Positions 475 to 54,830 of a stretch of DNA of 64,000 bases are shown piece by piece. Position 1 is the stretch's first letter. Each line of letters begins with the position of its first letter. Origin of the DNA: Clostridiaceae bacterium (GTDB lineage: Bacteria; Bacillota; Clostridia; Acetivibrionales; DUMB01); NCBI GenBank assembly GCA_012840085.1, contig DUMB01000080.1, positions 1 through 64,000 of the forward strand, given 5' to 3'. Below the pieces are notes generated by a model. It was not told the origin of the DNA. It worked only from the letters and a program-made list of their open reading frames with translations, and ran no database searches. Both the position numbers and the translations under genes were made by a program.

Positions 475-679
475 ATAACTTTTAAGCATTTCGCCTTTTT
501 GTCTCACAGGAATATATAATACATTAGAAAACATAACTTTGTCAACCAAGGAATTAAAAAAATTTTTTCCATGGCATAAAAACAGCATTTTTAATAAAGT
601 TTTTAACAAAATTTTTAGATAAATAGCCAAAATAAAATCCGCTACACATAAAGCGTAACGGATTCCATTCATTTATTAG

Positions 680-889
680 TTAGCCTTCCTTCTTTTCAAA
701 GAATTCATTCAGCTCTCTGACAAGCTTATCAGCATCAAGTCCATGTATAGCACATGCATCTTCTATGCTTTCTCCTGATGAAGAAGGACATCCAAGACAG
801 TGTAGTCCATTGTTCAAGAAAATCGGTACTGTACCTCTATCCATCCTTAAAACATCAGCAATAATCATATCGCGTGTAACTTTTGGCAT
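680..889 (-). CDS. DUF1858 (hybrid-cluster-associated redox disulfide) domain protein
   Basis: MPKVTRDMIIADVLRMDRGTVPIFLNNGLHCLGCPSSSGESIEDACAIHG...; SD AGAGGAGGGG before the internal ATG. Confidence 0.8.
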   Translation of the reverse strand: MPKVTRDMIIADVLRMDRGTVPIFLNNGLHCLGCPSSSGESIEDACAIHGLDADKLVRELNEFFEKKEG

Positions 890-1191
890 AAATTCCCCTC
901 CTCTTATTCTCAGGACGCATTTACTTTTGTAAACGTCCATTTGCTACGCCATTATAATTTAGAAATCTGCCTCGGGTACAGGTCATTAATTATCGCAGTT
1001 TTCTGTAACTAATGCCATATACCAAAGTTTTTTCACATTATTTGCTTTCTTTATTATAATATATTCCTTTTATAAAATATACCCCTGAAAACGTATTTTA
1101 AAACTAACATCATTAGCCTAATTTAATAGTTTTACTCGAAAGCTCCGCTTGATTAATATTTTCCAATAATCCTCCATTTAATAAATTGCAA

Positions 1192-1746
1192 TCAAATCTT
1201 GTATTTTGCTTTTCCAATTTCGTAAAGATTTTTGCCAGAACTGTCGATTATAACAATAGCAGGAAAATCTTTCACAGTAAGCTTTCTAAGAGCCTCAGGG
1301 CCTAGCTCCGGAAAAGCAATTATTTCCTCTGAAACAATACTTTTTGCAATCAATGCACCTGCTCCGCCAGTCGCTCCGAAATATACAGCCCCGTACTTAA
1401 TCATTGCATTTATTACATCAGCATTTCGGGCTCCCTTGCCAATCATACCTGTAAGCCCAATTTCAATTAGTTTTGGAGCATATGCATCCATTCTCCCGCT
1501 TGTAGTCGGCCCTGCCGAACCAATTATTTCTCCTGGCTTTGCAGGGCATGGCCCAACATAATATATTACCTGGCCTTCTATATCAAATGGAAGCCTTTCA
1601 CCATTTTCCAACAGCTCTGTCATGCGCTTGTGTGCTGCGTCCCTTGCAGCATATACAATTCCGTTTATGCTCACTATATCGCCGGCTTTAAGTTCCTTTG
1701 CCATTTCTCTGGTTATCGGAGTATTGACCTTTATTACATTGCTCAT
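1192..1746 (-). CDS. Fumarate hydratase class I, beta subunit (C-terminal domain type)
   Basis: GDIVSINGIVYAARDAAHKRM...IYYVGPCPAKPGEIIGSAGPTTSGRMD, typical FumB/TtdB family; downstream of alpha subunit. Confidence 0.9.
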   Translation of the reverse strand: MSNVIKVNTPITREMAKELKAGDIVSINGIVYAARDAAHKRMTELLENGERLPFDIEGQVIYYVGPCPAKPGEIIGSAGPTTSGRMDAYAPKLIEIGLTGMIGKGARNADVINAMIKYGAVYFGATGGAGALIAKSIVSEEIIAFPELGPEALRKLTVKDFPAIVIIDSSGKNLYEIGKAKYKI

Positions 1747-1759
1747 GTGAACCTCCATA

Positions 1760-2602
1760 TTAAATTACTATTTCTGCATGCCTGGTTACATGGCAGCCTA
1801 TATTGACCGCGACAGGCAATCCTGCAATATGTGTCGGGAATACCTCCACATTAACTGCAAGAGCTGTTATACGCCCACCCAGACCCGCAGGACCTATACC
1901 AAGTTTATTAATACTGTTCAGCAGTTCCTCTTCAAGCTTGCTTATATAATCTAAACTGTTCCTTTCTCCTACCGGCCTCAACAGAGCCGTTTTTGCCAGA
2001 AGCGCCGCCTTCTCCATTGTTCCGCCAATTCCTACTCCGACAATAATAGGTGGACATGGATTTGGTCCGGCACTTTCAACTGTTTCTATTACAAATTTTT
2101 TTACTCCTTCAACGCCGTCAGACGGTTTAAGCATCTTAACGGAACTCATATTTTCACTTCCGAAACCTTTTGGCGCAACGGTTATTTTCAGCGAATCGCC
2201 TTCTACAATATTGTAATGAATAATTGCCGGGCTGTTATCTCCGCTGTTTACCCTGTTTAAAGGATCAATAACAACTGATTTGCGCAGATAGCCTTTCTTA
2301 TAGCCTCTTCTTACTCCCTCATTTATTGCTTCTGTAAGTCCCCCGCCTTTTATACAAACATCCTGGCCTATATCAATAAATACCACAGCCATTCCGGTGT
2401 CCTGGCAGACAGGAAGGCTCTGTGCTCTTGCTATTTCGGCATTATCCACAATTTGCTTCATTACATTTTTGCCAATCTCTGATTCTTCATTTTCATAAGC
2501 ACATTTCAATGCTTTCATAAGGTCGCTGCTAAGGTAGTAATTTGAGTCAATACAAAGCTTTTCAACCGCCTCAGTCACTTTTTCAGCACTTATCTCCCTC
2601 AT
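1760..2602 (-). CDS. Fumarate hydratase class I, alpha subunit (Fe-S)
   Basis: LPVCQDTGMAVVFIDIGQDV...GFGSENMS...GPNPCPPIIVGVGIGGTMEKAALLAKTALLRP. Confidence 0.9.
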   Translation of the reverse strand: MREISAEKVTEAVEKLCIDSNYYLSSDLMKALKCAYENEESEIGKNVMKQIVDNAEIARAQSLPVCQDTGMAVVFIDIGQDVCIKGGGLTEAINEGVRRGYKKGYLRKSVVIDPLNRVNSGDNSPAIIHYNIVEGDSLKITVAPKGFGSENMSSVKMLKPSDGVEGVKKFVIETVESAGPNPCPPIIVGVGIGGTMEKAALLAKTALLRPVGERNSLDYISKLEEELLNSINKLGIGPAGLGGRITALAVNVEVFPTHIAGLPVAVNIGCHVTRHAEIVI

Positions 2603-15078: not shown

Positions 15079-15098
15079 ATATTTACCTCCGCATTTAA

Positions 15099-15174
15099 TT
15101 ATGGTAAACATATTTAGTTATGATAAACATATCTAGTTATGGCAAACATATTTAATTATTATAAACGTATTTTT
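15099..15174. repeat. Four-copy 19-bp tandem repeat overlapping the 3' end of the GH18 gene
   Basis: TTATGGTAAACATATTTAG / TTATGATAAACATATCTAG / TTATGGCAAACATATTTAA / TTATTATAAACGTATTTTT in exact 19-bp register. Confidence 0.95.
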
Positions 15175-16909
15175 TATCAGCAATTCCTTCTTTCCATTGC
15201 TGATAGCTTTCCACAAATTTTAAATTAGTATTTATAACCTCCCATACTTCCTGTATGCCGAAATTTTTGCTCCACGATGCAGCTCCTGCAAGCTTATACT
15301 TGTGAACAAGCCCAAGGCGCAAGTTTATTGAGTTCTTATCTTCCAGCCACATTTTATATACAACATTCTCATCCATGGCTTCTACATAAAACTGCCCGCT
15401 CTCCTCATCCCATTGCACATTGGCAACATTTTTCTCAATAAAATCTTTTGCCTGTTCCATGGATAATGCTTCACTTGACAAGCTAATTCCTCCGTCCTCT
15501 CCCGTTTCTTCCTTCCACAAACGAGTGTAAAGCGGCATTCCCAGCACCATCTTCTCATTAGGAATAGTTTCAAGGTATTTCTGAACCATTTTTTCCACCC
15601 AGCTTACTTGCGCAACCGAGCCTGCTTTAGGGCTTCCCTTCCAGTGCTGGTCATAAGTCATTACTATAACATAATCCACTACCTTAGCCAGTTCTTCACG
15701 ATCATAGCAGGCAGATGAATTAATGTCTATCGATACCGTTAATCCCTGCTCCCTAAGAAGGGGAGTTATCTCTCTGACAAACTGGGTTAGTGCATCCTTA
15801 TCCTGAGCTGTCAAATTCTCAATATCTATATTGATACCATCCAGCTTGTAAAGTGCCGAATAAGCAAGTATTTTCCTTATCAGATTATCTCTTGAATCAG
15901 TATTGTTAAGAAACTCTCTGGTTGCTTCCATATCATTAAAACTGTTTGATAAAAGAGCCCACACTTTATAACCGTTATTGTGGGCCCATTCAACATATCT
16001 AATATCCGCTCTGTTTATAAGGTCTCCTTCCTTATTGCTGAGTTGAAACCAGGTAGGTGAAATAACATCAAGCCCATCTATTGCCTCAACTTTTGACATG
16101 TCCGTCTTAGTCCATATCTGATCCCATACAAGGTTTATCTTTCCTTTTATTGGAGTCCATGTGGGGCTGTCGGAATCTCTTTCAGGTAATTGCCCTACCG
16201 TCATATGTTTTACAACCACAAATTTCTTTTCTATATATCCAATCACACCGTCAGATAACCTTACCTTGTACCATTTTTCATATTCCTCAAATACTCTCAT
16301 GGTATTGTCTTCTTCACTGTTTATGTCTATCCTTTTTATTATGGGATTGCGAATTGACCTGCCATTTCTCACAACCGCATTTTCATCTATAGGTTCTGCA
16401 AGTTGCTTTATGCTGTGTTTAAAGTCTATTATGACCACGTTGTTATTTTCAGGCCTTTGAATCTCAATATTATAAAAATCACTTAAAAACTCGATGGGAA
16501 CATATACAGTGCCATTTTCTTCTTCAACAGGTATATCAAGTGTCATTGGTTCGTTATTAACCATAGCATCCAGGCTTTCAGTTTTCATCCTAATAACCCT
16601 GTCTTTTGTAGTGACCGTAACTTTACCCAGTTTTTCATCCCAGTGGATATAAGGATCAATGTACTCCTTGATAGTCTCAAACGCCAGAAGAATTTCCTCT
16701 TCAACAATTCTGATTTTGTCTCCGGATGCGGCAAGCTCTCCTTCAACCACAAGATGTGGTCCCGCTTCACTGAAAGCAGGCACTACATTATTATTAGGTT
16801 TATAAAAAAAATAATAAACTGAGGATGATGCTAAAGCAAGCAATATTACAAAAGTATAAAACACAGGAAACTTCCTGGTACGCTTCCTCAAATTTTGTCC
16901 CCCATTCAT
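15152..16909 (-). CDS. Membrane-anchored GH18 glycoside hydrolase with copper-amine-oxidase-N-like and SH3-like regions
   Basis: N-terminal TM; KLDGINIDIENLTAQDKDALTQFVREI (DGxNxDxE GH18 motif); VIVMTYDQHW. Confidence 0.88.
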   Translation of the reverse strand: MNGGQNLRKRTRKFPVFYTFVILLALASSSVYYFFYKPNNNVVPAFSEAGPHLVVEGELAASGDKIRIVEEEILLAFETIKEYIDPYIHWDEKLGKVTVTTKDRVIRMKTESLDAMVNNEPMTLDIPVEEENGTVYVPIEFLSDFYNIEIQRPENNNVVIIDFKHSIKQLAEPIDENAVVRNGRSIRNPIIKRIDINSEEDNTMRVFEEYEKWYKVRLSDGVIGYIEKKFVVVKHMTVGQLPERDSDSPTWTPIKGKINLVWDQIWTKTDMSKVEAIDGLDVISPTWFQLSNKEGDLINRADIRYVEWAHNNGYKVWALLSNSFNDMEATREFLNNTDSRDNLIRKILAYSALYKLDGINIDIENLTAQDKDALTQFVREITPLLREQGLTVSIDINSSACYDREELAKVVDYVIVMTYDQHWKGSPKAGSVAQVSWVEKMVQKYLETIPNEKMVLGMPLYTRLWKEETGEDGGISLSSEALSMEQAKDFIEKNVANVQWDEESGQFYVEAMDENVVYKMWLEDKNSINLRLGLVHKYKLAGAASWSKNFGIQEVWEVINTNLKFVESYQQWKEGIADKKYVYNN

Positions 16910-28838: not shown

Positions 28839-28947
28839 CTCTGTGTTAACCCTATATCTCTGTGCTAATCTATTGTTCTGTGCTAACCTGTTGCTCTAAG
28901 TTAAACCATTGCTTTGCTTTAACTTATTGTTCCGCTCTACCCTGTTG
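28839..28947. repeat. Degenerate tandem repeat, ~17-19-bp unit CTCTGTGCTAACCTGTTG
   Basis: CTCTGTGTTAACCCTATAT / CTCTGTGCTAATCTATTGT / TCTGTGCTAACCTGTTG / CTCTAAGTTAAACCATTG / CTTTGCTTTAACTTATTGT / TCCGCTCTACCCTGTTG. Confidence 0.8.
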
Positions 28948-37582: not shown

Positions 37583-40804
<3,222 letters not shown>

Positions 40805-41048
40805 TTACATTAGCAGGAATGATTCCTGGTGGTAAATTTCTCCTGCACACTGTTATTTGCCTGTCTGATTGTATTGAAAACCATATTGCAAATTGAAGAC
40901 CAGCATAAACAACAGCAGTAAACATTATGTCTGTAATTTTGTCATATAATTATGATATAATTTTATTGATATTTTATATTATGCCAAAATCGCTTTCAAT
41001 CTAAATATATTTGCATTACTATAAATATATTGATATAGGGAGTTCATT

Positions 41049-41952: not shown

Positions 41953-42138
41953 ATGGAATTTTACAGAAATCTTATAATAGAAAAAGCAAAAAAAATGATA
42001 AGAGAAGGGTATCATAACTTTACGGAGATATCGGATATACTCGGCTATACTTCAATCCACTACTTCTCCAGGGCTTTCAAGAAAGCTACCGGTATGACAC
42101 CCTCTGAATATGCCATATCTGTTAAAATGAAAATTTAA
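41953..42138 (+). pseudogene. Truncated AraC-family C-terminal half (second HTH only)
   Basis: IIEKAKKMIREGYHNFTEISDILGYTSIHYFSRAFKKATGMTPSEYA; no first HTH or sensing domain. Confidence 0.6.
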
Positions 42139-42164: not shown

Positions 42165-43403
42165 TTAACCCTTGTTTTCTATTTCAAATCTTTTTCCTTC
42201 CCAGTTGCGTAAAACTGCTTTTTCCTTTCCTATCCACATTAAATAGTTGGGCAGAATAGGCGTCTTACCCAATCCTCCGGGACCGTTAACAATATATGTC
42301 GGTATAGCCAATCCCGAAGTATGCCCTCTCAGAGATTCCATGATCTCCAGGCCTTCTTCAAGCTTTACCCAGAAATGCGACGTGCCTTTAACCGTCTTTG
42401 GATGAAAAATGTAGTATGGTTTAACTCTTATCTTAAGAAGGCTTTGATTTAGTTTTCTTACCACATACTTGTTATTGTTGACGCCATTTAGCAGTACCAT
42501 CTGATTACCCAGAGGAATACCTGCATCAGCCAGCATTTCACACGCCCTTTTTGACTCCTCTGTAATCTCCATGGGACTGTTAAAATGTACATTCACATAA
42601 ACGGGATGGTATTTTTTCAGTATACTCACCAATTCAGGAGTTATACGCTGAGGGAGTGTTACAGGTGCTCTTGTTCCAAAGCGTATAATCTCTACGTGCT
42701 TAATGCTTCTCAGCTCAGAAAGAATCCATTCTATAGTTAAATCACTGAGCATAAATGCATCTCCGCCCGTTACCAGAACATCCCTTATTTCCTTGTTCTC
42801 CCTGACATAGTTTATGGCTTTGACCAATTTATCCTTTGAAGAGTGGGTATCGCATTCTCCTATTAACCTTCTCCTCTGGCAGAACCTGCAATACATGCCG
42901 CACATGTTTGTAACTTTAATAATAAGCCTGTCGGGATATCTCCTTGTTATCAGCTCTTCAGGTGTCGACCCGCTTTCATCCATAGGATCAAGCTCTCCCC
43001 TTGGATCAAGCTCACTTATGGAAGGTATGGCTTGCCGTCTTATGGGGCATGATGGATTATCAGGGTCAACAAGCGACAGATAATACGGAGATACAGCATA
43101 TCTGTATAATTCTCCGACCTTCGCAATACTTTCCTTATCCTCAGCGGAAAGATTAATTATGTCACTGATATCCTCTACACTGCTAAATCTGTTTTGAAGC
43201 TGCCATTTGTAGTCGCTCCATTGCTCTTCTGTGGCATTGAGCTTTTCAAGAATCTTTCTCTTCTGATATTTAATTCTTTCATCATCTTCTATACCTGTTT
43301 TGATTTTGTGCTTAACAGCTTCATAATCATCGATGCTATGTTTTAATCTTAAAAACCTCTCCTGATTTGTATTTAATTCCTTACACAAATTATTATTTAA
43401 CAT
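42165..43403 (-). CDS. eam: KamA-family radical SAM aminomutase, probable glutamate 2,3-aminomutase
   Basis: MCGMYCRFCQRRRLIG (CxxxCxxC), DVLVTGGDAFMLSD, PVYVNVHFNSP; HPKTVKG (K336) and TYIVNGPGGLGK (N373) replace the two substrate-binding Asp residues of lysine 2,3-aminomutase. Confidence 0.82.
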   Translation of the reverse strand: MLNNNLCKELNTNQERFLRLKHSIDDYEAVKHKIKTGIEDDERIKYQKRKILEKLNATEEQWSDYKWQLQNRFSSVEDISDIINLSAEDKESIAKVGELYRYAVSPYYLSLVDPDNPSCPIRRQAIPSISELDPRGELDPMDESGSTPEELITRRYPDRLIIKVTNMCGMYCRFCQRRRLIGECDTHSSKDKLVKAINYVRENKEIRDVLVTGGDAFMLSDLTIEWILSELRSIKHVEIIRFGTRAPVTLPQRITPELVSILKKYHPVYVNVHFNSPMEITEESKRACEMLADAGIPLGNQMVLLNGVNNNKYVVRKLNQSLLKIRVKPYYIFHPKTVKGTSHFWVKLEEGLEIMESLRGHTSGLAIPTYIVNGPGGLGKTPILPNYLMWIGKEKAVLRNWEGKRFEIENKG

Positions 43404-43459
43404 ACAACCTACCCCCCTGATTTTAGTAAATCCATTAATACCATTGCCACCTTATTTTT

Positions 43460-43519
43460 TATGCGAATTCATATAATCAGCGCAAACTTAGCATAATCAG
43501 CACGAATTTCGTATAATCA
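43460..43519. repeat. Three-copy 20-bp tandem repeat in the leader of the aminomutase gene
   Basis: TATGCGAATTCATATAATCA / GCGCAAACTTAGCATAATCA / GCACGAATTTCGTATAATCA. Confidence 0.85.
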
Positions 43520-43713
43520 ACACAATTACAGAAACTTTATTGGTATAAAACCACATTAATCCCATTATGCCCCAAAATGTTTACATGTAGCTAATAAAGG
43601 CGGCTTACCAGGTATGTAAAAATTTTACGGTCACTTTTTTATAAGTCCACTTTATTTGCTATAAAGCTTTTATATTTATGAAATATTGCATTAGTAACAA
43701 GTCTATTTATTAT

Positions 43714-43782
43714 GCATGGGAAAACGTATTTCTTTTGCCTGAAAAAATCCGTTTACTTTGCCTGGGAAAACACACTTCCCTT
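43714..43782. repeat. Three-copy 23-bp tandem repeat just downstream of the riboswitch terminator
   Basis: GCATGGGAAAACGTATTTCTTTT / GCCTGAAAAAATCCGTTTACTTT / GCCTGGGAAAACACACTTCCCTT. Confidence 0.8.
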
Positions 43783-43789
43783 AGGCGAT

Positions 43790-43832
43790 AAAAAAAGCAG
43801 TTCATCACCTAACCTAAGTGAAAACTGCTTTA
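43790..43832 (-). terminator. Intrinsic terminator after the c-di-AMP riboswitch
   Basis: AAAGCAGTTTTCACTTAGGTTAGGTGATGAACTGCTTTTTTT on minus strand. Confidence 0.85.
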
Positions 43833-43844
43833 TAGGCAAAATTA

Positions 43845-43978
43845 GAAACAATCTTCCCTTCAAAGCTTTCGAGGTTAGCTGACGGATTCGGACTGAAAGG
43901 AAATTAGCCCTACCGGAAAATATTCCGGATTCACCCCATAATTGGTTCCCCCGTATCCTGTTATTTCAGAAAAACAGG
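43845..43978 (-). ncRNA. Cyclic di-AMP riboswitch (ydaO/yuaA class)
   Basis: GATACGGGGGAACCAATTATGGGGTGAATCCGG...GGTAGGGC...CAGTCCGAATCCGTCAGCTAACCTCGAAAGC...GAAGGG matches conserved ydaO blocks. Confidence 0.92.
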
Positions 43979-44079
43979 AATTCAGCAATTAACATATTGA
44001 CTTTTTGATAAACATTAGTATTAATTTACTTAATTGTTATAATCATTATAATATATATGCGGCAAATTAGTCAAATTGT

Positions 44080-45123
44080 TTAAAATAAAATACAACTTTT
44101 TTGGTATATACTTAAACAAGAAATAATATATGATATAATGCTTTCGGCCCCCATATTATGATTTACCCCCTGAGCTGTCAGGCCGTCAAAGCAGCCGCCG
44201 GTTTCATTTTCAATCAGACATAAGCCTTTGGAGTTGCTTCCCTCGTACCATGCGTGACAGTCTTTTGCCTTTTTTAGGTATTTCCCGTTCCCCGTAGCTT
44301 CATAGGCCTCCATATATGCCAGCACAGCTTCGCAGGCTTCCACAGGCTGCTCATCGAACTCTGCCGCTTTTCCGCCTTTTGTAAGCCACCCGTTGCAACC
44401 AACAGGTTTGAAATACCCTTCCTTAAACAATATATTTTCAAGAAAGCTCATACTTTCCTCTGCTGTTTCAAGAAACTTATTATTTCCCATAACCCTGTAT
44501 GCGGCAAAAAGAGACCATGGCAAAACACTGTTGCAATATGTAACGGTATTTTCGAACCATTTCCAGTCATTATCAGCATGTTTGTCGTATAAGCAGCAAA
44601 GAGACTGTGCCATATCATAAATAAGGTTTTTTATTTCAATATTGTCAAGAAAAGAAAGGCCTATAACAGAATAAGCTTTAGCTCTGGGATAACTGAGTGA
44701 TTTTATATTGGGCAAAGCTTTTTTGAACACATATGTAAGTGCCTGTTTTACCCCCTTGGGTGTATATTCACTGGAAAGCGCATATCCCAATGCCCAGATA
44801 CATCTGCCGAAACAATCCTCTGACCCCTCGTCTTCAAGCCATTTCCTGTCATAACTCATAAAATTCTTAAATTTTCCCTGTTCATTTTGTGCATTCAATA
44901 AAAAGGATGAATATCGGTATATAAGGTCAACATACTTTTTCTCTCCATATGTCTTATATAGCATAATCGACATGATGAGAGCTCTTGCGTTGTCGTCGGT
45001 GGTATACCCGTGGCGGGGATCAGGAACCCAGCACTTTGAGTGCTGGAGCATTCCCGTATCATCAGTAAGCCTGAAAATGTGATCATCTTTCACAATATTG
45101 TTATCATATAATCTGCTTATCAT
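44080..45123 (-). CDS. Predicted (alpha/alpha) toroid glycosidase-like protein associated with GT4
   Basis: SKCWVPDPRHGYTTDDNARALIMSIMLYK...KAEFDEQPVEACEAVLAYMEAYEATGNGKYLKKAKDCHAWYEGSN; overlaps the upstream GT4 gene by 4 bp. Confidence 0.7.
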   Translation of the reverse strand: MISRLYDNNIVKDDHIFRLTDDTGMLQHSKCWVPDPRHGYTTDDNARALIMSIMLYKTYGEKKYVDLIYRYSSFLLNAQNEQGKFKNFMSYDRKWLEDEGSEDCFGRCIWALGYALSSEYTPKGVKQALTYVFKKALPNIKSLSYPRAKAYSVIGLSFLDNIEIKNLIYDMAQSLCCLYDKHADNDWKWFENTVTYCNSVLPWSLFAAYRVMGNNKFLETAEESMSFLENILFKEGYFKPVGCNGWLTKGGKAAEFDEQPVEACEAVLAYMEAYEATGNGKYLKKAKDCHAWYEGSNSKGLCLIENETGGCFDGLTAQGVNHNMGAESIISYIISCLSIYQKSCILF

Positions 45124-46306: not shown

Positions 46307-46400
46307 CTCTTCTATACCTCTTCAAATCTCTTCTAATTTCTTCTAAATCTCTGCTATGCCTCTTCTTATATCTTCTATGCCTCTTCTCATCTCTTCTATA
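46307..46400. repeat. Degenerate ~21-bp CT-rich tandem array downstream of the nucleotidyltransferase gene
   Basis: CTCTTCTATACCTCTTCAAAT / CTCTTCTAATTTCTTCTAAAT / CTCTGCTATGCCTCTTCTTATAT / CTTCTATGCCTCTTCTCAT / CTCTTCTATA (last copy contains the TAG stop). Confidence 0.85.
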
Positions 46401-47439
46401 CCGCAATCGGATAACTGGATTCTTTGGTAAGAATGCTGTTGTATTCCTCACTGTATCTGTCAACCCTGCAGTTGGACATAATTACGGAGTTAGTCACAGT
46501 AGCTCCTTTTTCTACCGTCACATTATCCCACACTACACTTTCAAGAACCTTTGCCCCTGTACCTATGCATGAGTTATCACACAAAACAGTATTAGGGCCG
46601 ACAACAGCATTGGAATTAATCTGCACATTGCTGCCTATATAAACAGGAGCTATAATTCTTGCACTTTGAGCTATTTTTGCAGTTTTGCTGATGTACTGCA
46701 TCTCTTTTTTGAAATTATGAGTACCGATTTCCACTGCGCCCTTCAGTATGTCCTTGTGCACTTTGAGATATTTCCCGGGTGTTCCCAGATCAAGCCAATA
46801 AGAGCACCGGTTGTAAAGTGCAATTTTAAATCCTTTCTCAAGCAGTAATGGATAGGTCTCCCGTTCAATGGATACAGGCCTTCCGGATGGAATTTCATCA
46901 AAAAGCTCCGGTTCAAATATATAGATACCTGCATTAATCAGGTTTGAACGGCTCTCATGTGGTTGCGGTTTCTCAATAAATGCTGTTATATAATCCTTCT
47001 CATCATGTTCAATAACACCATAGGCCGACGGATTGTCTACATGTGTTGCGGCAATGGTGGCAAGAGCCCCCTTTTTCTTATGAAAGCGTATCATGTCGGA
47101 AATATTAATATCACTTAATATATCTGCATTAAATACCAAAAATGTATCATTGAAAAAGTCCTGAGCATTTTTAATTGCACCGGCAGTACCCAGGGGCATA
47201 TCCTCAGATATATAGCTGATTTTTACCCCGAACTTTTTTCCGTCTTCAAAATAATTTTTAATTTTATGAGGTTTATAACAGGTGCTTAATACTATTTCAT
47301 CTATGCCATGCTTTTTCAGATTTTTAATATTTAATTCAAGAAGCGGCTTGCCCATAATGGGCACCATAGGTTTGGGCAATTCATTTGTGATAGGTTTCAG
47401 GCGTGTTCCAAAACCTCCGGCTAAGAATAAAGCTTTCAT
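46396..47439 (-). CDS. NDP-sugar pyrophosphorylase (mannose-1-phosphate guanylyltransferase-like) with left-handed beta-helix
   Basis: MKALFLAGGFGTRLKPITNELPKPMVPIMGKPLLE...FNADILSDINISDMIRFH...C-terminal hexapeptide-like repeats. Confidence 0.92.
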   Translation of the reverse strand: MKALFLAGGFGTRLKPITNELPKPMVPIMGKPLLELNIKNLKKHGIDEIVLSTCYKPHKIKNYFEDGKKFGVKISYISEDMPLGTAGAIKNAQDFFNDTFLVFNADILSDINISDMIRFHKKKGALATIAATHVDNPSAYGVIEHDEKDYITAFIEKPQPHESRSNLINAGIYIFEPELFDEIPSGRPVSIERETYPLLLEKGFKIALYNRCSYWLDLGTPGKYLKVHKDILKGAVEIGTHNFKKEMQYISKTAKIAQSARIIAPVYIGSNVQINSNAVVGPNTVLCDNSCIGTGAKVLESVVWDNVTVEKGATVTNSVIMSNCRVDRYSEEYNSILTKESSYPIAV

Positions 47440-47642: not shown

Positions 47643-48151
47643 ATTTCCAATTGATACAGGGGAAATATTGATATATTATTGCCCGGTGAATATGCTAAAC
47701 AGCAGTCATAAAATTGTTGCTGATTTCCCTTCTCCTTGCCGGGTATCCGTTTACCCTGATTTCCTTATCAAATAATTACGTTATAAACTGCAATATAACA
47801 CTCTTATTAACAGGCAATTTCGTATACCCTACGTTTATTCTAAAAAATCTGCGTCTTTCTTTGCAGGGGTTCATTGCATCACACTTAGCCATAAGCTGGT
47901 ATTATTAATTTAAAGTTATTCGTTGACTATATTTGCGTATGTTTTATACAACCTTTGCCGTTACAAATGCTACGTTTTCATATTATGTTGATTTACTTAT
48001 TTATTGTAAAATTTTAACAATAAGGATTGTTTCTTTTTGGCACAACATATTATACTCAATTGAAACAGGTATATTTATTAAAATGGATGCATTTATTGAA
48101 ATAAATGTATTGAGGTGGGAAATAAGCAACATTGCTGCATAATAAAAAAAT

Positions 48152-50790: not shown

Positions 50791-50834
50791 AAGCTTTTTT
50801 CTCCACCTCAATATAGATTCATAGTTTCTATTCT

Positions 50835-50897
50835 ATATGCCATCTGTCTGTCATGATATATTACCTGTTTGTCCTGATATGTTATCTATCTGTTCTG
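50835..50897. repeat. Three-copy 21-bp tandem repeat spanning the PpiC stop codon
   Basis: ATATGCCATCTGTCTGTCATG / ATATATTACCTGTTTGTCCTG / ATATGTTATCTATCTGTTCTG; third copy encodes the terminal TDR* codons. Confidence 0.9.
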
Positions 50898-52117
50898 ACT
50901 TTCTTATATACATTGTCATAAATTAAAACATTGGCTTCTTCCACAAGCTTATCGATATATTCAGAATATTTGTCATCTATATACCGTGCCCTCAAATTTT
51001 CTTTCACTTCATCAAAGGGCTTATATGACAATACAATACTCTCCAGGCATTTAACAATATAAAAGGCATTGCCTTCCTCTATTACATCACTTATTTCACC
51101 TGCATCCATTCCCATGACAATCTCTCTCAATACCGGATTCAACCGGGCATCCACGCTTGCAGTTTTGTTGTCAAATATGCGTTCAGAATCATCATCACTA
51201 ATATTTAATTCTTCAATAATCTTCTCAAAACTTTCACCGTCATTTATCCTCTTTTTTATTTCATCACACTTGTCTCTTAAATCATCTTTCATTTCTGCTC
51301 TGACTTTGCCGTCTTCATCGGCATAGGATAGCTTGATTATTTTGGTTTTTACCCTCTTTCCCTGCGTATAGTAAATGTCTTTTACCTGTTCATAATAGTC
51401 CCTGATTTGTTCATCCGATACATTCAGCTTTGCAAGTAACCTGCTTTTCAGCTCTTTTGATAATTCAGCCATTTTATAAAAGAGATAGGTTCGTGGGTCA
51501 TACTCTTTCAGTCCGAATATTATCTGTTTTTTCTCAATTGCTTCTTTCCTTTTTTTGTTCTCTTTCTCCATCTCCCTTAAAAGTGATTCATAGCTGATGT
51601 TTTCGATAATGCCTTCTTTCTGTGCCATTAACAGTTGTACTTTTGTCCTTTTTATTTCATTAATGGCATTTCTCTTTACTACTTCCGACGGATTTTCACC
51701 ATTGTATGAAGATGACCAGAAATCCGGATCATCCTGAACACCGTATTTATTCCTGAAATACTCAATTACCGCTCCTCTTTCCTCAAGAATGTAATGCCTG
51801 AACTCTTTTACGGTCACAGGCTCATTTTCAATTAATGCAACAATATCGGAATCTGCAGGTTTTGCTTGTAAGAGGCAAATTACTATAACGCTGAAAACAA
51901 TAACGCAGCATATGATTGTTGCAAATAAAACTTTTCTATTCTTTAAGCCATTATTGCAATTCTTTTTCTTAGCATTATAGTTTTCCTTCCCGCTATTTTT
52001 ATGGTTCTTCATAACGTTCATAGCTTTATAGTTCTGCTTGACGTTCGTAGCTTTATAACTCTTCTTAGTGTTCATAGCTTTATTGCTCTTCTTAACGTCT
52101 ACGCTTTTCATCTTCAT
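50882..52117 (-). CDS. Membrane-anchored PpiC/SurA-type peptidyl-prolyl isomerase (foldase)
   Basis: TM VLFATIICCVIVFSVIVICLL; parvulin-like region KRVKTKIIKLSYADEDGK...INDGESFEKIIEELN...MDAGEISDVIEEGNAFYIVKCLE. Confidence 0.82.
   Translation of the reverse strand: MKMKSVDVKKSNKAMNTKKSYKATNVKQNYKAMNVMKNHKNSGKENYNAKKKNCNNGLKNRKVLFATIICCVIVFSVIVICLLQAKPADSDIVALIENEPVTVKEFRHYILEERGAVIEYFRNKYGVQDDPDFWSSSYNGENPSEVVKRNAINEIKRTKVQLLMAQKEGIIENISYESLLREMEKENKKRKEAIEKKQIIFGLKEYDPRTYLFYKMAELSKELKSRLLAKLNVSDEQIRDYYEQVKDIYYTQGKRVKTKIIKLSYADEDGKVRAEMKDDLRDKCDEIKKRINDGESFEKIIEELNISDDDSERIFDNKTASVDARLNPVLREIVMGMDAGEISDVIEEGNAFYIVKCLESIVLSYKPFDEVKENLRARYIDDKYSEYIDKLVEEANVLIYDNVYKKVRTDR
51983..52090 (-). repeat. 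27-bp (9-aa) tandem repeat in the cytoplasmic N-terminus of the PpiC protein
   Basis: KSNKAMNTK / KSYKATNVK / QNYKAMNVM / KNHKNSGKE. Confidence 0.8.
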
Positions 52118-54637: not shown

Positions 54638-54830
54638 CCGACAGTGTGAAATAAATTTTCAGACGGTATAATGTAATTTTTTCAGACGGTTTAGTGTAAA
54701 CTATCCCAGACAGTATTAAGTCTCTTGAACTTTTGCACTATCACCTTAAACTTTCGGTTTTAACCTTCAACTTTAGACTTTTAACCTATGACTTTAGTCC
54801 TCTAGACTTTGGCTTTATACTTTCAGCTTT
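54638..54830. repeat. Two adjacent degenerate arrays (~23-bp CAGACGGTATAATGTAATTTTTT unit, then ~21-bp CTTCAACTTTAGACTTTTAAC unit)
   Basis: CCGACAGTGTG... / CAGACGGTATAATG... / CAGACGGTTTAGTG... / CAGACAGTATTAAG...; CTTAAACTTTCGGTTTTAAC / CTTCAACTTTAGACTTTTAAC / CTATGACTTTAGTCCTCTAGA. Confidence 0.8.

Follow-up and report, generated by a model that had tools for sequence, protein, structure and literature searches.

The messenger c-di-AMP is central to K+ and osmotic regulation in Gram-positive bacteria, and, to our knowledge, there are few descriptions of it directly controlling osmolyte synthesis, in comparison with osmolyte transport. The closest described system is the ablA leader of Dehalobacter sp. 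CF, in which a Na+ riboswitch, a c-di-AMP aptamer, and a terminator precede the gene of a KamA-family lysine 2,3-aminomutase that serves a beta-amino-acid osmolyte; nucleotides of the aptamer core pair there with the left arm (the left shoulder) of the terminator, and c-di-AMP turned the leader off when tested in vitro (PMC9337991). The same work (White et al. 2022) showed a c-di-AMP riboswitch controlling beta-lysine synthesis and listed eam, the glutamate 2,3-aminomutase (EAM) gene, among the genes under Na+ riboswitches, where it is read as serving osmoprotection by beta-glutamate; that a riboswitch directly controls the synthesis of a beta-amino-acid osmolyte is therefore not new. Beta-glutamate counts among the established compatible solutes (PMC1224877) and has been reported from few bacteria.

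The locus considered here lies on the minus strand of a 64,000-nt stretch of contig DUMB01000080.1 of a Clostridiaceae bacterium (assembly GCA_012840085.1), which we refer to as the window, and consists, in order, of a promoter-like site, a c-di-AMP aptamer, an intrinsic terminator, a 384-nt leader, and an eam gene (43403-42165). The first-pass annotation had proposed a c-di-AMP riboswitch on this strand from conserved sequence blocks, and a search with the Rfam model RF00379 recovered it at full length at 43849-43997, spanning model positions 1-134 of 134 with 99.5 bits (gathering score, 38) and an E value of 2.1e-22 computed for the whole window. The interval assigned earlier (43790-43978) does contain the elements named, although it is shifted, starting inside the aptamer and ending at the terminator tract. 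The promoter-like site (44074-44045; TTGACT-18-TATAAT, 11/12 consensus positions) precedes the aptamer by 47 nt, directly past the stop of the upstream gene at 44080-45123, and was equalled in 0/100 shuffles; such a site also stands before the aptamer in most of the 23 riboswitch loci examined, where no more than 5% of shuffles equalled it. Past eam, the same strand has no long ORF for about 1.4 kb, until a beta-galactosidase (40744-37583); AraC-type sequences occupy the opposite strand between the two. A 61-codon AraC-type C-terminal fragment (41953-42138, plus strand), convergent with eam, is probably a pseudogene remnant.

The terminator that had been noted behind the riboswitch is a long hairpin (AAAGCAGTTTTCAC...GTGATGAACTGCTTT) followed by a T-run at about 43831-43787, and the hairpin scan placed it 17-20 nt past the aptamer; nearly all of the 23 loci examined have a terminator-like hairpin close behind their aptamer. 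Folding the RNA from 43888 to 43787 gave a minimum free energy structure of -31.8 kcal/mol in which the conserved 3' core of the aptamer and the 3' strand of P1 (GUCAGCUAACCUCGAAAGCUUUG) pair with the left arm and loop of the terminator (43884-43803), and only 1/200 dinucleotide shuffles folded as well (z -3.8). The terminator by itself amounts to about -17.5 kcal/mol. By predicted folding the locus thus has both a terminator and a competing antiterminator, the latter predicted to form in the ligand-free RNA, and from these two energies the ligand is expected to switch the gene off, the same logic as in the ablA leader. A pairing of the GCUUUG/UAAAGC type is possible in most relatives, with no real excess over partners swapped between loci (5.50 of 6 pairs for a locus's own partners, 5.32 for swapped ones); the helix is conserved at the P1 strand mostly by identity, so that covariation lends it almost no support and the test is neutral.

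The product of the gene (42165-43403), which is preceded by a G-rich ribosome-binding site, is a KamA-family radical SAM/PLP enzyme of 412 aa. It had been described as glutamate 2,3-aminomutase-like, and this name is borne out. Its score against the NCBIfam EAM model TIGR04368 was 641.6 bits, 8 under the cut-off of 650, while the lysine 2,3-aminomutase model AblA reached 457.2 bits (184 lower) and the arginine mutase model 368 bits (274 lower). Pfam returned Radical_SAM and LAM_C, and the radical SAM CxxxCxxC cysteines (C168, C172, and C175) as well as the PLP lysine K380 are invariant throughout the alignment. Residues K336 and N373 align to the two substrate-side aspartates, Asp293 and Asp330, of the solved lysine enzyme 2a5h; all 60 EAM sequences of our first tree share this K/N signature, and the 7 lysine-type outgroup rows have D/D. 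The lead of TIGR04368 and this distribution of residues make the identity of the gene as EAM well supported at the sequence level, and the enzyme probably converts glutamate to beta-glutamate. The EAM of Clostridioides difficile, reportedly the subject of Ruzicka and Frey (2007), belongs to the same family and carries the same signature residues, there presumably K332/N369; unlike it, the window enzyme falls in a lineage that scores just under the TIGR04368 cut-off.

The pairing of riboswitch and enzyme recurs. In a class-wide sample EAM was present in 42 of 391 genomes, and intersecting the coordinates by hand placed a c-di-AMP riboswitch immediately before 16 of these 42 genes and in the same orientation, the window included; a separate collection added loci from Carboxydothermus islandicus, Alkalibacter mobilis, and several MAGs. 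A phylum-wide sample returned a match in 143/399 genomes and a riboswitch at 22 of the 30 best-scoring EAM loci, as called by a motif test with a sensitivity of 23/23 that agreed with Rfam in 40/40 loci scanned both ways. On the combined phylum tree the riboswitch lies directly upstream in 50/105 EAM rows, clustered in two EAM lineages, and well-supported branches require three or more changes of riboswitch state. All of these counts include loci that were retrieved by searching with the protein of the window, and some clades are made up of closely related genomes. An earlier impression that the pairing is confined to a single EAM lineage (23/35 against 0/25) was overturned by the second lineage in the phylum-wide sample. 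Since genomes with any c-di-AMP riboswitch hold only 1 to 7 of them, chance placement is negligible at these frequencies, and recurrence in many genomes means that the pairing is no accident of one assembly. About half of the sampled EAM genes are without the riboswitch, so c-di-AMP control is not essential to EAM function; a search at E 0.1 upstream of riboswitch-free EAM genes at nine loci returned no degenerate remnants.

Gene neighborhoods in relatives supply further context. Directly upstream of riboswitch and EAM, three loci carry an operon that we named by eye from sequence as a Mrp-type Na+/H+ antiporter. At locus L119 (1306-1760), from a genome of the same order, a Na+ riboswitch, a c-di-AMP riboswitch, and EAM follow one another, a series that is probably a two-input gate on eam and that bridges the Na+-eam and c-di-AMP-eam systems by placing both sensors before the gene. 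A further c-di-AMP riboswitch in the genome of L119 is preceded by a sub-threshold match to the Na+ riboswitch and followed by a dapB-like gene, an arrangement described for Acetivibrio cellulolyticus. Neither the window nor its genome contains a match to the Na+ riboswitch model RF03071, so that no such tandem precedes eam here; in this, and in having EAM in place of a lysine 2,3-aminomutase, the locus differs from the Dehalobacter ablA leader, and from the published Na+-controlled eam genes, which have the same enzyme under a riboswitch, it differs in the ligand. Three further c-di-AMP riboswitches occur in the genome, each before a cell-wall hydrolase-type gene, and one diadenylate cyclase is encoded. 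The window's riboswitch shares its aptamer family with the ydaO/yuaA riboswitches on cell-wall hydrolase or K+ transporter genes, unlike which its target is a solute-making enzyme.

Closely behind EAM in six relatives is a gene resembling HMGL or homocitrate synthase, and at locus L011 a gene of this family (557-1942, plus strand) separates the riboswitch from EAM; even the best of its matches to curated families fall far below cut-off. Re-citrate synthases frequently carry a wrong annotation as homocitrate or isopropylmalate synthase (PMC12016533), from which we infer that the HMGL-family gene in an operon with EAM is a putative Re-citrate synthase. In four other loci the leader is a relic of this gene, holding collinear decayed pieces of it with matches up to E 3e-14. 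The window's genome has a homologue of the putative Re-citrate synthase elsewhere (65% identity) in addition to an ordinary citrate synthase. The tandem Na+ riboswitch, the Mrp-type operon, and the putative Re-citrate synthase together point to an osmotic and ionic function, and the last of these partnerships suggests that c-di-AMP directs carbon towards glutamate as well. We put forward, tentatively and as somewhat less than an even prospect, that c-di-AMP riboswitches in anaerobic Firmicutes control a dedicated carbon-to-osmolyte module of Re-citrate synthase and EAM, the former being the point of carbon entry towards 2-oxoglutarate and glutamate, and that the window's genome represents a lineage in which the two genes became separated. 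If so, c-di-AMP would set both the supply of glutamate and its conversion to beta-glutamate at the level of the transcript. This would parallel the known control of pyruvate carboxylase by c-di-AMP.

We regard the window's switch as a real, conserved, and conceptually expected case of osmotic control, and the locus as probably an OFF switch by which c-di-AMP stops transcription of a gene for beta-glutamate synthesis. The transcript would begin about 40 nt ahead of the aptamer. At low c-di-AMP, when turgor is needed, the 3' core of the aptamer would pair with the left arm and loop of the terminator and block it, and polymerase would read through the long leader into eam, whose product would isomerize L-glutamate, yielding beta-glutamate as a compatible solute that is metabolically inert. 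At high c-di-AMP, when turgor or K+ is sufficient, two molecules of the ligand would lock the aptamer, the terminator would form, and eam would be off. The aptamer, the terminator, the promoter-like site, the enzyme family, and the recurrence are computational findings, the switch in folding is a prediction, and we infer the ligand response in vivo and the osmolyte role. The earlier suggestion of riboswitch control over osmolyte synthesis is upheld, with less novelty than had been implied, eam having already been named in PMC9337991; our search of the available literature, by comma-free terms, found no paper joining glutamate 2,3-aminomutase and a riboswitch. The present analysis contributes the wide occurrence of the c-di-AMP/EAM pairing, together with the putative Re-citrate synthase that is co-transcribed with EAM. 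Occurring in half of the sampled EAM genes, the pairing makes beta-glutamate a testable and probably widespread compatible solute of anaerobic Firmicutes, for which it offers a ready reporter.

Three other readings compete with the OFF switch on beta-glutamate synthesis. KamA-family paralogues are close in sequence and the window enzyme scores just under the EAM cut-off, so that a lysine or arginine 2,3-aminomutase might have been mistaken for EAM, with beta-lysine or beta-arginine as its product; the leads of 184 and 274 bits over the respective models, and the K and N that stand, in this protein as in all EAM rows, at the positions of the lysine enzyme's substrate-side aspartates, with D/D in the outgroup, make this very improbable. 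A somewhat less remote reading, still an unlikely one, is that eam is expressed mainly from a second start within the 384-nt leader which would leave the switch as a vestige or as the source of a separate short RNA; the length of the leader and its 20-nt tandem array, a possible protein-binding site, might speak for this. Such a start had been named beforehand as an observation that would count against riboswitch control, and the promoter scan of the leader gave no site better than shuffled sequence, the best being equalled by 86% of shuffles, against 0/100 for the site before the aptamer. Long leaders among the loci examined likewise held no promoter-like site above chance; moreover, the aptamer and the start codon are just 77-102 nt apart in many relatives, too short for a separate leader promoter.

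Slightly more weight, though well short of making it likely, attaches to the possibility that c-di-AMP controls EAM while beta-glutamate is destined for catabolism or is a secreted or cell-wall precursor, so that the control would reflect the state of the envelope. The three hydrolase-associated riboswitches of the same genome are in keeping with this reading. Set against it are the Na+ riboswitch in tandem at L119, the Mrp-type antiporter neighbors in relatives, co-transcription with a putative citrate-forming enzyme that would supply glutamate carbon, and the treatment of eam as an osmolyte gene in published work.

The untranslated leader itself (43404-43786) measures about 384 nt from terminator to ATG, close to the roughly 390 nt estimated at first, and, as had also been stated, nothing substantial is encoded between terminator and eam, the leader's ORFs being 22 codons or shorter. 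Past the terminator the window's leader is without conservation in relatives, and its single match in the genome is itself, on which ground we rejected a mobile element or dispersed repeat; a relic of a lost gene was likewise rejected, the window's leader matching neither the HMGL-family gene of L011 nor the genome's own copy. Its description as repeat-rich holds insofar as it contains two degenerate tandem arrays beyond what shuffles produce, one with a 20-nt period and 2.7 copies (43473-43525, or 43464-43534 in the window-wide list of arrays; TRF score 64; 0/300 shuffles) and one with a 23-nt period (43699-43775). Many other gaps of the window hold arrays of this sort, so this richness does not set the eam leader apart; the leader has the appearance of the genome's ordinary intergenic sequence rather than of a second regulator, though a protein may bind its 20-nt array. 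The window holds nine degenerate arrays in all, with periods of 18-23 nt, a different unit in each, and nearly all intergenic (15085-15177, 28851-28917, 40755-40830, 43464-43534, 43699-43775, 46340-46410, 48058-48114, 50833-50905, and 54758-54824), and block-shuffled controls contained none. At the end of the leader, on the minus strand, an eleven-codon ORF (43404-43444, MVLMDLLKSGG) with its own AAGGTGG ends inside the ribosome-binding site of eam, to which it is possibly translationally coupled.
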